Shown here piece by piece: positions 2,801 through 21,263 of a DNA stretch of 48,677 bases. The notes under the pieces are model-generated. The model was not told the DNA's origin and made no database searches. It saw only the letters and a list, made by a program, of their open reading frames with translations. Position 1 is the first letter of the stretch, and each line of letters starts with the position of its first letter. The DNA lies in the NCBI GenBank assembly GCA_011524395.1, contig WTKN01000405.1:1-48677 (forward strand), written 5' to 3'. The position numbers were made by a program, and so were the translations under genes. This stretch comes from Moorena sp. SS36440bin_2 (GTDB lineage: Bacteria; Cyanobacteriota; Cyanobacteriia; Cyanobacteriales; Coleofasciculaceae).

Positions 2801-4054
2801 TTACTGGTATTTTTTGAAGGCTAGGGTAACATTATGACCGCCGAACCCAAAGGAATTGGATAGCACTACTTCTACCATCTGCTGGCGACTATAATTGGGT
2901 ACGTAATCCAAATCACATTCAGGGTCTGGATTGTTCAGATTTATCGTTGGTGGAATCTGGTCATGGGCAATTGCCATCACTGAAGCCACTGCTTCAATGC
3001 CACCAGACCCTCCCAACAAATGACCTGTCATGGATTTGGTGGAGCTAATTGCTACTTTATAGGCATGGTCTCCTAAAGCTTTTTTAATCGCTGCTGTTTC
3101 AGTTTTATCATTGGCAACTGTACTAGTCCCGTGGGCATTGATGTAGCTAACCTGTTCGGCCGTCAAACCAGCATCCTTCATCGTCAGTGCTATAGCCCTG
3201 GCTGCTCCTTCGCCACCTGGTACAGGGGATGTGATGTGATGGGCATCACAGGTCATGGCATAGCCAACGATTTCGGCATAAATTTTTGCTCCACGACTGA
3301 GGGCGTGTTCTAGTTCCTCTAGGATCAGAATCCCAGAACCTTCTCCCATCACGAAGCCATTGCGAGCGATATCAAAAGGACAGCAAGCTGACTCAGGAGT
3401 ATCGTTACGAGTAGATAAAGCTCGTGCTGATGCAAACCCAGCCATTGCTAGGGGAGTCACCGCCGCTTCAGCACCGCCACAAATCATGGCTTGGGCATAG
3501 CCTCGCTGGATTAAGCGAAATGCATCACCTACAGCATTAGACCCTGCGGCACAAGCAGTAACTGGGCAACTATTGGGTCCCTTCGCTCCCGTATGAATTC
3601 CTGTCTGACCAGCTGCCATGTTAGCAATCATCATCGGGATCATAAAAGGACTACAGCGGTCAGGTCCACGTTTAATAAGAACTGTTTCCTGGTCTTCCAG
3701 TACCTTCAGACCACCGATGCCAGTGCCAATCATTACACCGACCTGTTCTGCGTTCAGGTCATTGATCTCAAACTGGGCATCAGCTAATGCTTGCTTACTG
3801 GCAGAAACCGCAAATTGAGCAAAGCGATCCATACGATTTGCTTCCTTACGCTTCATGTAGTCATGGGGGTCAAAGCCCTTAACCTCGCCAGCAATACGAC
3901 AAGCGTGCTTGGAGGCATCAAATAAGGAAATTAAACCAATACCATTGCGTCCGTTTAACAACCCTTCCCAGTACTCAGCCACAGTGTTGCCTATCGGCGT
4001 AATTGCACCGAGACCTGTAACAACGACCCGTTTTTTATCAAAGTTTGTCATCAT
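2801..4054 (-). CDS. fabF: 3-oxoacyl-[acyl-carrier-protein] synthase II
   Basis: Condensing enzyme of type II fatty-acid synthesis: it joins malonyl-ACP to a growing acyl-ACP. At 417 residues it is the usual KAS II length. The catalytic Cys168 lies in VTACAAGSN, and the two histidines are His308 (NAHGTST) and His345 (MTGHLLGG), giving a complete Cys-His-His triad. The Gly-rich C-terminus (SNSFGFGGHN) is also intact. Two adjacent ATG codons (MMTNF) make the start ambiguous by one residue, and no clear Shine-Dalgarno sequence precedes either. It follows acpP by 60 bases on the same strand, so the substrate carrier and the elongation enzyme are probably co-transcribed. Confidence 0.97.
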   Translation of the reverse strand: MMTNFDKKRVVVTGLGAITPIGNTVAEYWEGLLNGRNGIGLISLFDASKHACRIAGEVKGFDPHDYMKRKEANRMDRFAQFAVSASKQALADAQFEINDLNAEQVGVMIGTGIGGLKVLEDQETVLIKRGPDRCSPFMIPMMIANMAAGQTGIHTGAKGPNSCPVTACAAGSNAVGDAFRLIQRGYAQAMICGGAEAAVTPLAMAGFASARALSTRNDTPESACCPFDIARNGFVMGEGSGILILEELEHALSRGAKIYAEIVGYAMTCDAHHITSPVPGGEGAARAIALTMKDAGLTAEQVSYINAHGTSTVANDKTETAAIKKALGDHAYKVAISSTKSMTGHLLGGSGGIEAVASVMAIAHDQIPPTINLNNPDPECDLDYVPNYSRQQMVEVVLSNSFGFGGHNVTLAFKKYQ

Positions 4055-18195: not shown

Positions 18196-19107
18196 ATGAC
18201 CAAAATCACTATAATCGGAGCTGGTGTTTGGGGTACAGCCCTCAATAGCCTAGCCTCTAAAAACGGTGATCAGGTTTGTTTGTGGTCCCGTCGGAGTCAG
18301 ACAAAATTAGCAGATGCTATAAAATCTAGCAGTATTATCTTGTCTGCTGTTTCCATGTCGGGGGTAAATTCTGTAGCGCAACAGCTAAAGTGTTTATCAG
18401 TATCTTCTGAGGTGATCTTGGTCACAGCGACTAAGGGATTAGATTTGCAAACTACCCGTACTCCCTCTCAAATCTGGCAAGCTGAATTTCCCAACAATCC
18501 TGTAGTGGTGCTATCGGGTCCCAATCTTTCCAAAGAAATTAAACAAGAACTCCCAGCCGCTACAGTAGTAGCTAGCACAGATGTCAAAGCAACTGAGATA
18601 CTACAACAGGTGTTTTCTTCGGCAAATTTCCGGGTTTACACCAATCGAGACCCCCTCGGTGTAGAACTAGGGGGTACCCTCAAAAATGTGATGGCGATCG
18701 CATCTGGAACCTGTGATGCTTTACAACTAGGAACAAATGCCAAAGCAGCTTTGCTAACCCGTGGACTTACAGAAATGATTCGTATTGGTACAGATTGGGG
18801 TGCTCAGGTAGAAACATTTTACGGTTTGTCGGGACTAGGAGATTTACTGGCAACCTGTAGTAGTAGCCTCAGTCGGAATTATCAAGTTGGTTATCAGCTC
18901 GCTCAGGGTCATAAACTTTCAGATATTCTGGCCAACTTGGAGGGAACAGCAGAAGGGGTAAACACTACAAAGGTTGTGATTGAACGAGCTAAGCTCAAAA
19001 GAATTTCAGTACCCATCACTTATCAAGTCCATCGATTGCTCCAAGGGGAGATTACTCCCCAAGCTGCTGTTGAAGCTCTGATGCTACGAGATACTAAGCC
19101 AGAATAA
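18196..19107 (+). CDS. gpsA: Glycerol-3-phosphate dehydrogenase [NAD(P)+]
   Basis: Reduces dihydroxyacetone phosphate to sn-glycerol 3-phosphate, the backbone for membrane lipids. The Rossmann motif is ITIIGAGVWGTAL at the N-terminus. Then come LSGPNLSKEI, the catalytic-Lys region GTLKNVMAIASG, and AALLTRGLTEMIRIG plus GLSGLGDLLATC in the C-terminal helical domain. At 303 residues it is about 30 shorter than the E. coli enzyme, because the stretch after LWSRRS is compact; cyanobacterial forms are often short. It starts 48 bases after lipA. A repeat copy follows directly. Confidence 0.95.
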   Translation: MTKITIIGAGVWGTALNSLASKNGDQVCLWSRRSQTKLADAIKSSSIILSAVSMSGVNSVAQQLKCLSVSSEVILVTATKGLDLQTTRTPSQIWQAEFPNNPVVVLSGPNLSKEIKQELPAATVVASTDVKATEILQQVFSSANFRVYTNRDPLGVELGGTLKNVMAIASGTCDALQLGTNAKAALLTRGLTEMIRIGTDWGAQVETFYGLSGLGDLLATCSSSLSRNYQVGYQLAQGHKLSDILANLEGTAEGVNTTKVVIERAKLKRISVPITYQVHRLLQGEITPQAAVEALMLRDTKPE

Positions 19108-19119
19108 TAGTCTGATCTC

Positions 19120-19165
19120 GAGTGCGTTCCCGTAGCGGCTCTGAACGCGCACGCGTGGGCCTTTA
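19120..19165. repeat. Palindromic repeat fragment after gpsA
   Basis: GTGCGTTCCCGTAGCGGCTC is followed by GAACGCGCACGCGTGGGCC and TTTAGCC, a partial unit of the dispersed family. Downstream, TGAGACATTCATTGATACAT-like short direct repeats occupy about 19271-19314. No gene is evident in 19166-19800. Confidence 0.6.
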
Positions 19166-19808
19166 GCCTTAAGAGTATCGCAACGGTAATCAAAAATTTA
19201 CGAAACCCGCTAGTATCCACTGCTCCGTGACTGCGAAAGCTCTCCTGCTTGAAAACTCAGATCACAAAACTGAGACATTCATTGATACATTCATTGAGAC
19301 ATTATTGAGACATTTTGGTATTGTCTATCAGGCATCGTGAAAATATAGACTCTTTAGGGACATGGCACTGCTTGAGCTGAAGTGACTGCATCAATAAATT
19401 GCAAACTTTAGTAAACTTTTATAAAGTTTTGTAATGCCATGGCCAATCTGGCAACATAGCTAGGTGGCTCTAATATTTGATAATTCTGGTAATTCGGCAA
19501 TAATTTGGCAATTTTGAACTATGTATATGCACTTATTCATAAGTTCGTTGTTTCTTCAAACCCATTCCAGCAAAGGATATCCGCAAGTAGCTTGGCTATT
19601 GCTTAGTCCTGGATATTAGTCCCTGATAGCCCTAAATAAAATTTTTTCTTGAATTAGCGAGAATCTTTCTGGAATCCCCATGATGCGCACTGTAGATTAA
19701 TACAGCTTTTGACCAAGGTCTCTATTTACCTATAGAGTTACTTCTAAAATAGCTCAAATCAATAGCTGAAATCAGGAAATCCCGTTCCTTTAGCCATCTA
19801 TCAACCTT

Positions 19809-19904
19809 TAGCCCTTACGGGCAAGGTCAGGTGGAGACATCGGGTGAACCGTTAGCTACGGATACTAATAAGGGCTACCAGGGATAACCGGTAAGTCTTG
19901 CCGG
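19809..19904 (+). ncRNA. Candidate structured leader RNA upstream of the sigma factor
   Basis: TAGCCCTTA (19809-19817) is perfectly complementary to TAAGGGCTA (19869-19877), closing a domain about 70 bases long. Inside it, CCGT-TAGCT-ACGG can form a hairpin, and the interior has GGTCAGGTGGAGACATCGGG. A second stem follows (CCGGTAAG with TTGCCGG, 19888-19904). Just before the gene, GTGACAAACAC (19964-19974) pairs with GTGTTGTCAC (19981-19990) with one bulge. I do not recognise a known riboswitch class. Whether it is transcribed with the gene is unknown. Confidence 0.4.
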
Positions 19905-20012
19905 AAAAAAAATTTTAGTAGCTGTTTCTCCGGTCATCATGGGTGGGAATTCTAGTACTAAGTGTGACAAACACAATTCCGTGTTGTCACTGGTTGTAAT
20001 CGAGAGATCATT

Positions 20013-21263
20013 ATGCCAGCCACTCCTTTCTATGCCGACACAGAATTAGATCACGAGACTTCTGCCTATAGCTTTGAGCTTAATGGCCCAAGGGACGATG
20101 GGGAAGGATCAGTGGATGACTTAGTTGATGTGGAGATTGAGGGTGTAGACGCGGCTAGCTTAACCAAAAATAGCACCCGTCGCACCACCGACCTAGTTCG
20201 GTTATATCTCCAGGAAATTGGTCGGGTTCGTCTACTGAGGCGAGATGAGGAAGTCTCGGAAGCTCAAAAAGTTCAGCGCTACATGAAACTACTACGGCTG
20301 CGCAATAAGTCGGCTATATCTGAGGATAAAGTCATGGAGCGCTTTGTCCACCTGATTGAAACCCATGATCGTCTAGCGTCCCAGTTAGGTCACCGTCCTT
20401 CCTTGGAACGGTGGGCAACGGCTGCAGGAATTGACGTTTCTCAACTGAAGCCGAGTATGTCAGCTGGCAAACTGCGTTGGGCAGAGTTAGCTGAACTAAC
20501 ATCCAAAGAGCTAGAGCAGGTACAAGCTGAAGGGCTCCAAGCTAAGGAACACATGATCAAAGCTAACCTACGTCTAGTAGTGTCAGTAGCGAAGAAGTAT
20601 CAAAACCGTGGCTTGGAACTCCTAGACTTAATTCAGGAAGGAACTCTGGGATTAGAGCGAGCGGTTGAGAAATTTGACCCGACCAAAGGCTACCGATTTA
20701 GCACCTATGCTTACTGGTGGATCCGTCAAGGAATCACCCGGGCGATCGCTACCCAAAGCCGTACCATTCGCCTACCAGTTCACATTACTGAGAAGCTCAA
20801 TAAAATCAAAAAAGCCCAACGGAAGATTTCCCAGGAACGTGGGCGCACAGCAACCATTGATGATATTGCTGTGGAATTAGAAATGACTGCGGCTCAGGTA
20901 CGAGAAGTATTACTACGAGTACCCCGCTCTGTTTCTTTGGAAATTAAAGTTGGTAAGGAACGAGACACCGAACTAGGAGATTTACTCGAAACTGAGGAAA
21001 CCTCTCCAGAAGAAGTGTTGATGCGAGAAGCTTTACAACGGGATTTACAGCAACTCCTAGCCGATCTAACCAACCGTGAACGGGATGTAATTCGGATGCG
21101 GTTTGGCTTGGGAGATAACCAGCCTTACTCTCTCGCTGAGATTGGTCGCGCTTTAGATCTATCTCGGGAGCGGGTACGCCAAATCGAAGCTAAAGCTTTA
21201 CAAAAGTTGCGGCAACCCAAGCGCCGTAACCGAGTTCGGGATTATCTGGAAGCTTTGAGTTAA
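20013..21263 (+). CDS. sigC: Group 2 RNA polymerase sigma-70 factor, SigC-like
   Basis: RNA polymerase specificity subunit, 416 residues. An acidic N-terminal extension (MPATPFYADTELDHE...) precedes region 1.2 (TDLVRLYLQEIGRVRLL). Region 2 includes IKANLRLVVSVAKKYQNRGL and the -10-recognition helix FSTYAYWWIRQGITRAIA. Region 3 follows, and region 4.2 is the helix-turn-helix LAEIGRALDLSRERVRQIEA. It lacks the long Lys/Glu-rich region 1.1 of the primary SigA. The MPAT...FYAD start resembles my recollection of Anabaena SigC, so the subgroup is moderately sure. Translation starts at ATG 20013, after GAGAG. A 900-base upstream region with a structured RNA candidate suggests leader control. Confidence 0.85.
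   Translation: MPATPFYADTELDHETSAYSFELNGPRDDGEGSVDDLVDVEIEGVDAASLTKNSTRRTTDLVRLYLQEIGRVRLLRRDEEVSEAQKVQRYMKLLRLRNKSAISEDKVMERFVHLIETHDRLASQLGHRPSLERWATAAGIDVSQLKPSMSAGKLRWAELAELTSKELEQVQAEGLQAKEHMIKANLRLVVSVAKKYQNRGLELLDLIQEGTLGLERAVEKFDPTKGYRFSTYAYWWIRQGITRAIATQSRTIRLPVHITEKLNKIKKAQRKISQERGRTATIDDIAVELEMTAAQVREVLLRVPRSVSLEIKVGKERDTELGDLLETEETSPEEVLMREALQRDLQQLLADLTNRERDVIRMRFGLGDNQPYSLAEIGRALDLSRERVRQIEAKALQKLRQPKRRNRVRDYLEALS

Follow-up and report, generated by a model that had tools for sequence, protein, structure and literature searches.

A conserved J-Box motif and a stretch of conserved pairing upstream of sigC in Moorena and related cyanobacteria

In Nostoc punctiforme, hormogonium development is driven by a cascade of the sigma factors SigJ, SigC and SigF, with SigC as a member (PMC6495340). 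SigJ-dependent promoters in that species share an extended -10 element of the form GGGaAtacT, termed the J-Box, in combination with a -35 region that is AT-rich and weakly conserved; the motif is reported at pilB in many species, and at N. punctiforme sigC, where it was annotated manually and taken as a sign of direct SigJ control (PMC6495340). According to a review, two strains carry SigJ as an additional copy alongside SigF, and the same review gives transcription starts for sigC of Synechocystis PCC 6803, of which those at -141/-140 are constant while those at -38/-31 increase with growth (PMC2758279). It also gives the SigB-type promoter of Bacillus subtilis as RGGXTTRA-N14-GGGTAT (PMC2758279). 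On the RNA side, the nearest described systems are the riboswitches and structured 5' leaders of Rfam 15, which likewise consist of a structured stretch upstream of one gene.

Here we describe the region upstream of sigC in a 48,677-nucleotide stretch of DNA from Moorena sp. SS36440bin_2, referred to below as the window. The open reading frame at 20013-21263 (+ strand) is sigC, encoding 416 amino acids and scoring 720.7 bits against the SigC model NF005785 (cut-off 554). Upstream of it lies gpsA (18196-19107), separated from sigC by approximately 900 bp and preceded by what we take to be a lipoyl synthase-like gene. Judged by eye in flanks of up to 3 kb, 5 of 10 other loci likewise have open reading frames resembling both of these ahead of sigC. 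The same genome encodes two proteins that exceed the cut-off of 261 bits for the SigF subfamily, with scores of 411.6 and 378.3 bits. The Moorena set comprised four genomes with three distinct sequences, and includes the close relative Moorena bouillonii (locus L016). The features discussed below are collected in Table 1.

Table 1 Features upstream of sigC, in positions of the window.
Feature	Position	Strand	Basis
Palindromic operator-like block TTTGACCAAGGTC	19708-19720	+	Centre 29 nt before -10 hexamer, approximately -41.5
Predicted distal -10 box TAAAAT	19745-19750	+	Equivalent TATACT or TATAAT, 10 non-Moorena family loci
Match to covariance model R1	19748-19941	+	43.9 bits, E 3e-9
Predicted long leader of distal transcript, 256 nt	19757-20012	+	Distal promoter prediction plus conserved structure
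Local hairpin in P2 region (CCATCT/AGGTGG, ACCTT/AAGGT, GCCC/GGGC)	19794-19834	+	Minimum-energy folds of the window
P3 hairpin	19871-19899	+	Two-sided changes at 10/14 pairs, 11 relatives outside Moorena
GC-rich hairpin, alternative to P3	19888-19904	+	Invariant in Moorena; competes with P3 in folding
A-tract between P3 and -35 region	19905-19912	+	A-rich columns upstream of J-Box
TGTT, -35-like element of J-Box promoter	19923-19926	+	Majority bases in 40 representatives
J-Box GGGAATTCT, extended -10	19945-19953	+	68 bp before ATG; 66/73 sigC upstreams
5'-terminal hairpin of predicted short sigC mRNA	19964-19990	+	13 distinct family hairpins, mean z -1.75

Predicted proximal and distal promoters at sigC

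From 96 distinct sigC loci, 23 were dropped due to the lack of an ATG at the aligned start or to an upstream sequence shorter than 200 bp. Among the 73 that remained, the pattern GGG[A/C]AnnnT occurs 45-160 bp before the ATG in 66, while 100 dinucleotide shuffles gave a mean of 2.9 and a maximum of 8. The J-Box is thus a conserved promoter motif at this gene. A set of 40 representatives (sigC upstreams sharing less than 80% identity) showed T, G, T and T at positions -21 to -18 from the GGG in 26, 27, 32 and 26 cases, respectively, with one extra T in the -35 region of Moorena. This TGTT-like element differs from the weakly conserved, AT-rich -35 described for N. punctiforme. The SigB-type promoter of B. 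subtilis is alike in having GGG at -10, a T-containing -35 and a similar spacing, but the -10 seen here is GGG[A/C]AnnnT.

The strict motif is absent from the range -160 to -45 in 7 of the 73 loci (L120, L121, L028, L022, L063, L064 and L082). In L120 and L121 one G of the J-Box is changed, and in L028 the J-Box sits at -164, beyond the range searched. The Trichodesmium (L064), Okeania (L082) and Microseira (L022) loci have no strict J-Box upstream of sigC. The distance from the J-Box to the start codon is mostly 58-85 bp, with values of 138-164 bp in L028, L030, L046, L047, L050 and L058; in these six, extra stretches lie within the short 5' UTR, with retention of the ribosome-site block TACCTGGAGC..(N)TGAGA.

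A J-Box was also found at 13 of 19 pilB loci, including that of the same genome, where it lies 39 bp before the ATG. In four Moorena genomes (L170-L173) the inverted repeat GGAGTGGC-N-GCCACTCC stands directly before the -35 of the pilB J-Box, and L174 carries a different inverted repeat before its J-Box. No inverted repeat was seen by eye before the pilB J-Box in 8 of the 13 loci that have one. The idea that a hairpin precedes every J-Box was rejected, as one was seen by eye at only 5 of the 13.

In N. punctiforme, the +1 position is given as lying ten bp away from the -10 centre, which the text of that paper calls upstream and which is taken here as downstream (PMC6495340). The position of the J-Box in the window therefore predicts a start at approximately 19960, and by analogy with gvpA we infer a proximal transcription start there. 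A transcript starting at that point would contain none of 19809-19904. This bears directly on an earlier note on this DNA, which had proposed a structured leader before sigC: the predicted J-Box transcript begins downstream of 19904, which the note itself had named as an outcome that would refute its proposal and which holds against it for that transcript, and it is only the predicted distal transcript, starting at approximately 19757, that would carry the structure.

The further stem that the earlier note had placed before the start codon is present, and would form the 5' end of the short mRNA. None of 200 column shuffles gave a consensus energy as good as that of this hairpin; its nine basal pairs, though, are free of two-sided changes, and equally good pairing arises in 90 of 500 shuffles. 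Over the 40 representatives, the whole sigC UTR has a mean z of +0.24 (the 6 family members among them have z values of -0.04 to -2.01), which rules out a UTR fold that is general to sigC and makes the hairpin a family trait.

For the distal promoter, 14 loci out of the 19 in the family, including 4 from Moorena, have a TTTGA block followed by a TAnnnT hexamer (TATACT, TATAAT or TAAAAT) 28-30 nt past the centre of the palindrome. From this arrangement we infer a distal transcription start near 19757. Class II activators usually bind near -41.5, where the palindrome would then be centred. In L112, L117 and L118 the palindrome is degraded. The pattern TTTGACCNAGGTC occurs once in its own genome and the reversed control pattern 1 and 1 times, so the rarity of TTTGACCNAGGTC alone says nothing. 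Just upstream of the TTTGACC block, at 19690-19705, there is a near-palindrome, CTGTAGATTAATACAG, and closely similar sequences occur across much of the family.

The predicted layout is similar to that of Synechocystis PCC 6803 sigC, with its constant distal and growth-increased proximal starts, although the distances are different and the passages of the review on which this comparison is based describe no structured leader (PMC2758279).

Conserved pairing between the predicted promoters

Sliding-window folding was performed relative to the J-Box. Across 15 loci of the family (14-15 with sequence), the mean z reached -1.81 at -60, and a second minimum of -1.49 to -1.75 was found at -140/-120. 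The 19 Nostocales loci gave a mean z of -2.06 at -60, while the 23 loci outside the family and Nostocales had weaker minima (-0.43 at -60 and -0.99 at -140). Single folds of most family members show a long hairpin domain, P2, followed by P3 and the A-tract; together the P2 and P3 domains correspond to approximately 19760-19905 of the window. As a whole, 19795-20015 folds mildly better than its shuffles (z -2.06, 5/200), and 19805-19905 has a z of -1.53 (14/200).

Pairing was assessed in alignment A4, which holds 11 family sequences from outside Moorena, using a structure derived by RNAalifold with ribosum scoring. In this structure 77.9% of cells are paired, a value not matched by any of 500 shuffles, and slid versions of the structure reach 34-45%. 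Two-sided changes occur in 23 cells (0/500 shuffles), and the covariation score was attained in 7/500. Neither the number of pairs with a two-sided change (38/500) nor that of further pair types (176/500) was beyond the shuffles. Besides the changes in P3 (Table 1), two-sided changes were seen in 1, 1 and 2 pairs of the P2 helices and in none of P1. Compensatory change is hence seen in P3, weak in P2 and absent from P1.

As the structure had been fitted to A4 itself, the fitting was repeated on column-shuffled alignments. The consensus energy of P2 and P3 was -19.9, compared to -6.5 (sd 2.5) for the refitted shuffles, none of which came as low (0/200). P3 alone was likewise not matched (0/200), P2 alone was matched once (1/200), and the P3 region of 18 sequences including Moorena gave 0/200. 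The pairing is conserved, and its recovery depends on the scoring used: default consensus folding of alignments A2, A3 and A5 did not yield the claimed hairpins, the 18-sequence alignment among them giving no pairs at all, and A4 at default settings yielded P1 together with two short parts of P2 and nothing else. Ribosum scoring, or a lower penalty for non-pairing sequences, brought out P2 and P3. A trimmed alignment, A6, was excluded because trimming had removed P3.

A conserved outer helix P1 (GCTTATA/TATAAGC) was considered and rejected. It appears in single folds, but its pairs never vary or mismatch, and its counterpart in Moorena, by reading, pairs in another register. For the sequence GCTTATACT, a -10 box is the better reading.

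The support for P3 differs between individual sequences. Single-sequence folds gave p <0.05 in 9 of 18, with a mean z of -1.72; the window itself has a z of -0.45, and L123, in which P3 is absent, has +2.38. Pair probabilities of P3 in the window are 0.34-0.72 when 19795-19944 is folded, 0.15-0.31 for 19757-20015, and 0.01-0.03 for an RNA cut at the -35 (19757-19930). The GC-rich hairpin of the earlier note, CCGGTAAGTCTTGCCGG, was found as described. By reading the alignment, the outer tiers of the P2-region hairpin are retained in the three distinct Moorena sequences, and a change of G19872 to A in M. bouillonii converts a G-U pair of P3 to A-U, keeping the hairpin. The stretch between the two predicted promoters changes fast yet keeps its fold, and is probably RNA.

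Distribution of the stretch and readings other than a leader

A covariance model of P2 and P3 without P1, termed R1, was built from the 11 sequences outside Moorena. It recovers all 7 distinct non-training family sequences supplied, the window included. A sequence-only model scored 30.1 bits for the window, over 19831-19939, and the R1 score includes a contribution from the conserved 3'-terminal -35 block. Of the 7 non-training sequences, 3 scored higher with structure in the model and 4 scored lower (L005, L120, L010 and L121, where the sequence-only model outscored the structured one), although the scoring modes of the two models differ. A search of 55 sources gave one other match below E 1, at 3634-3700 of the window (E 0.29). 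Within the family, R1 matches one place in each of 19 out of 20 genomes, every time beside sigC, and the stretch is single-copy there. Across the order, R1 matches 14 out of 195 genomes, and 11 of these belong to the family; the three matches outside the family are short and weak (E 5e-4 to 0.009). M. bouillonii scores 28.5 bits, no better than one of these three, a stray match in another family with 28.0 bits.

The earlier note had recognised no known riboswitch class, and this holds: no Rfam family matches the region. A search of the whole window at gathering scores returned only a tRNA elsewhere, a search of 19100-20100 at E up to 5 gave one chance match in the coding part, and six relatives searched at E up to 1 gave two matches of microRNA models to an unrelated repeat in L122. 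The covariance search that the note proposed has come out negative against Rfam, and positive with R1, in whose training Moorena had no part. A known riboswitch was accordingly rejected as an explanation, and the region differs from the riboswitches and leaders of Rfam 15 in that neither a ligand-binding core nor an expression platform was identified here. No report of a structured sigC leader was found in the literature searched. The L122 repeat (132-185) is long, inverted and near-perfect, and may be what is left of a small mobile element.

The stretch could instead be a small RNA gene in its own right, driven by the distal promoter and ending before the J-Box, which acts elsewhere and is no more than a neighbour of sigC. 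In favour of this, the fold stops at the A-tract, shortly ahead of the proximal -35, it is single-copy, and gpsA and sigC lie approximately 900 bp apart in the window. We nonetheless regard this as unlikely, since P3 is not followed by a T-run on the + strand (the next 8 bases are A-rich in 10 of 11 relatives and T-rich in none of the 11), and since all 19 family matches adjoin sigC.

The conserved hairpins might instead act in the DNA or from the other strand, as an antisense intrinsic terminator or as a palindromic protein site beside the promoter. Loci L139-L168 were found with a Nostoc query and are presumed to be Nostocales, and the Nostocales set of 55 loci was reduced to 47 distinct sequences by dropping 8 that did not meet the pattern or had the same hairpin stretch. 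These have a hairpin just ahead of the -35, formed in L143 by CCATTACAG and CTGTAATGG. With the helix defined on one row (L143) of the same alignment used for counting, 76% of cells are paired (0/500 shuffles) and 24% unpaired, and the covariation score is 0.272, compared to 0.168 (sd 0.017) for shuffles (0/500) and at most 0.107 for slid versions. The consensus energy was not reached by any of 200 column shuffles. Two-sided changes are seen in 7 of 9 pairs, a number which 88 of 500 shuffles also reach.

The minus strand after this hairpin has at least 5 T in 8 bases in 41 of the 47 loci, making an antisense terminator a serious alternative in Nostocales, and the inverted repeat before the Moorena pilB J-Box also speaks for a role in DNA. 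In the 11 relatives from the Moorena family, by contrast, the corresponding count is only 2-4 T of 8. Also against this reading, the paired bases change together with no half-site being kept, though the unpaired Nostocales cells qualify this point. For the Moorena family we consider that a function in DNA or antisense is unlikely.

Several further observations were made in Nostocales. A conserved block close to GATTTGAATAGCTATTGGTTCAATC lies approximately 110-135 bp before the J-Box in loci including L024, L031, L045 and L048; it looks like a fixed-loop hairpin and may cause the second folding minimum of this order. The -10 part of the J-Box, AACAATAG, matches CTATTGTT in inverted form over 8 bp, the latter standing just ahead of the ribosome site. 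The stretch from -35 to -10 is flanked by CCGTG/CACGG, and there is a folding minimum at the J-Box.

It might also be that the J-Box transcript alone exists, the upstream stretch being a non-transcribed regulatory region whose pairing reflects shared ancestry and fitting. The predicted J-Box start does lie downstream of the entire structured stretch, related sequences can beat shuffles without structure, and the model score was lowered by structure in the four non-training sequences noted above. Set against this are the column shuffles with refitting at each round, the lower values of the slid controls, and a second lineage in which a different hairpin sequence occupies the same place, and we give this reading little chance.

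The earlier note had described a domain closed by a 9-bp helix. The two arms, TAGCCCTTA (19809-19817) and TAAGGGCTA (19869-19877), are indeed perfectly complementary, and the helix appears in the short fold of 19805-19905. The covariation check on it failed: across the three distinct Moorena sequences, none of the nine pairs shows a two-sided change and five are broken, all five in M. bouillonii and none compensated. Its pair probability is 0.00-0.02 in four longer stretches (three of the window and one of L110), and P3 takes the 3' arm with another partner, which the M. bouillonii change in that arm suits instead. The helix is thus unsupported, because its pairs break without compensation and its probability does not exceed 0.02 in longer RNAs; it is present, but it is not the conserved structure. 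The claim of a structured stretch upstream of sigC survives in the form of the conserved two-domain fold, and not as this helix. That the helix closes a sensory domain that acts as a switch is, on the same evidence, scarcely to be believed.

Two predicted sigC messages

With a structured stretch lying between two predicted promoters, the sigC message may come with or without a folded leader. We lean, by a little, towards a model in which sigC has two promoters, a proximal J-Box promoter and a distal one, with the P2/P3 leader carried only by the distal message and bypassed through the J-Box. The proximal promoter would be read by RNA polymerase with a SigJ/SigF-type sigma factor, giving a short mRNA with approximately 53 untranslated bases and a hairpin at its 5' end. 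The distal promoter, with its palindrome and -10 box, would probably be activator-dependent and would give a leader of approximately 256 bases that folds into P2 and P3, the fold ending just before the proximal -35. The structured leader would most likely limit how well the distal message is translated or how stable it is; once the SigJ-driven motility programme starts, the J-Box promoter would bypass this leader.

A bolder version of this model is that the stretch represents a new class of cis-acting leader RNA, in which P2/P3 restrains SigC synthesis and an internal SigJ promoter allows the motility programme to skip the fold. We put this forward tentatively, as something that would more probably fail than hold. 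The different covarying hairpin at the same place in Nostocales suggests that the arrangement may be general, with the sequence itself turning over fast.

If sigC carries a J-Box in many genera, SigC would be under the control of SigJ as a general rule. A folded leader lying between two promoters would in turn suggest how one sigma factor can have both a constant and a regulated message.
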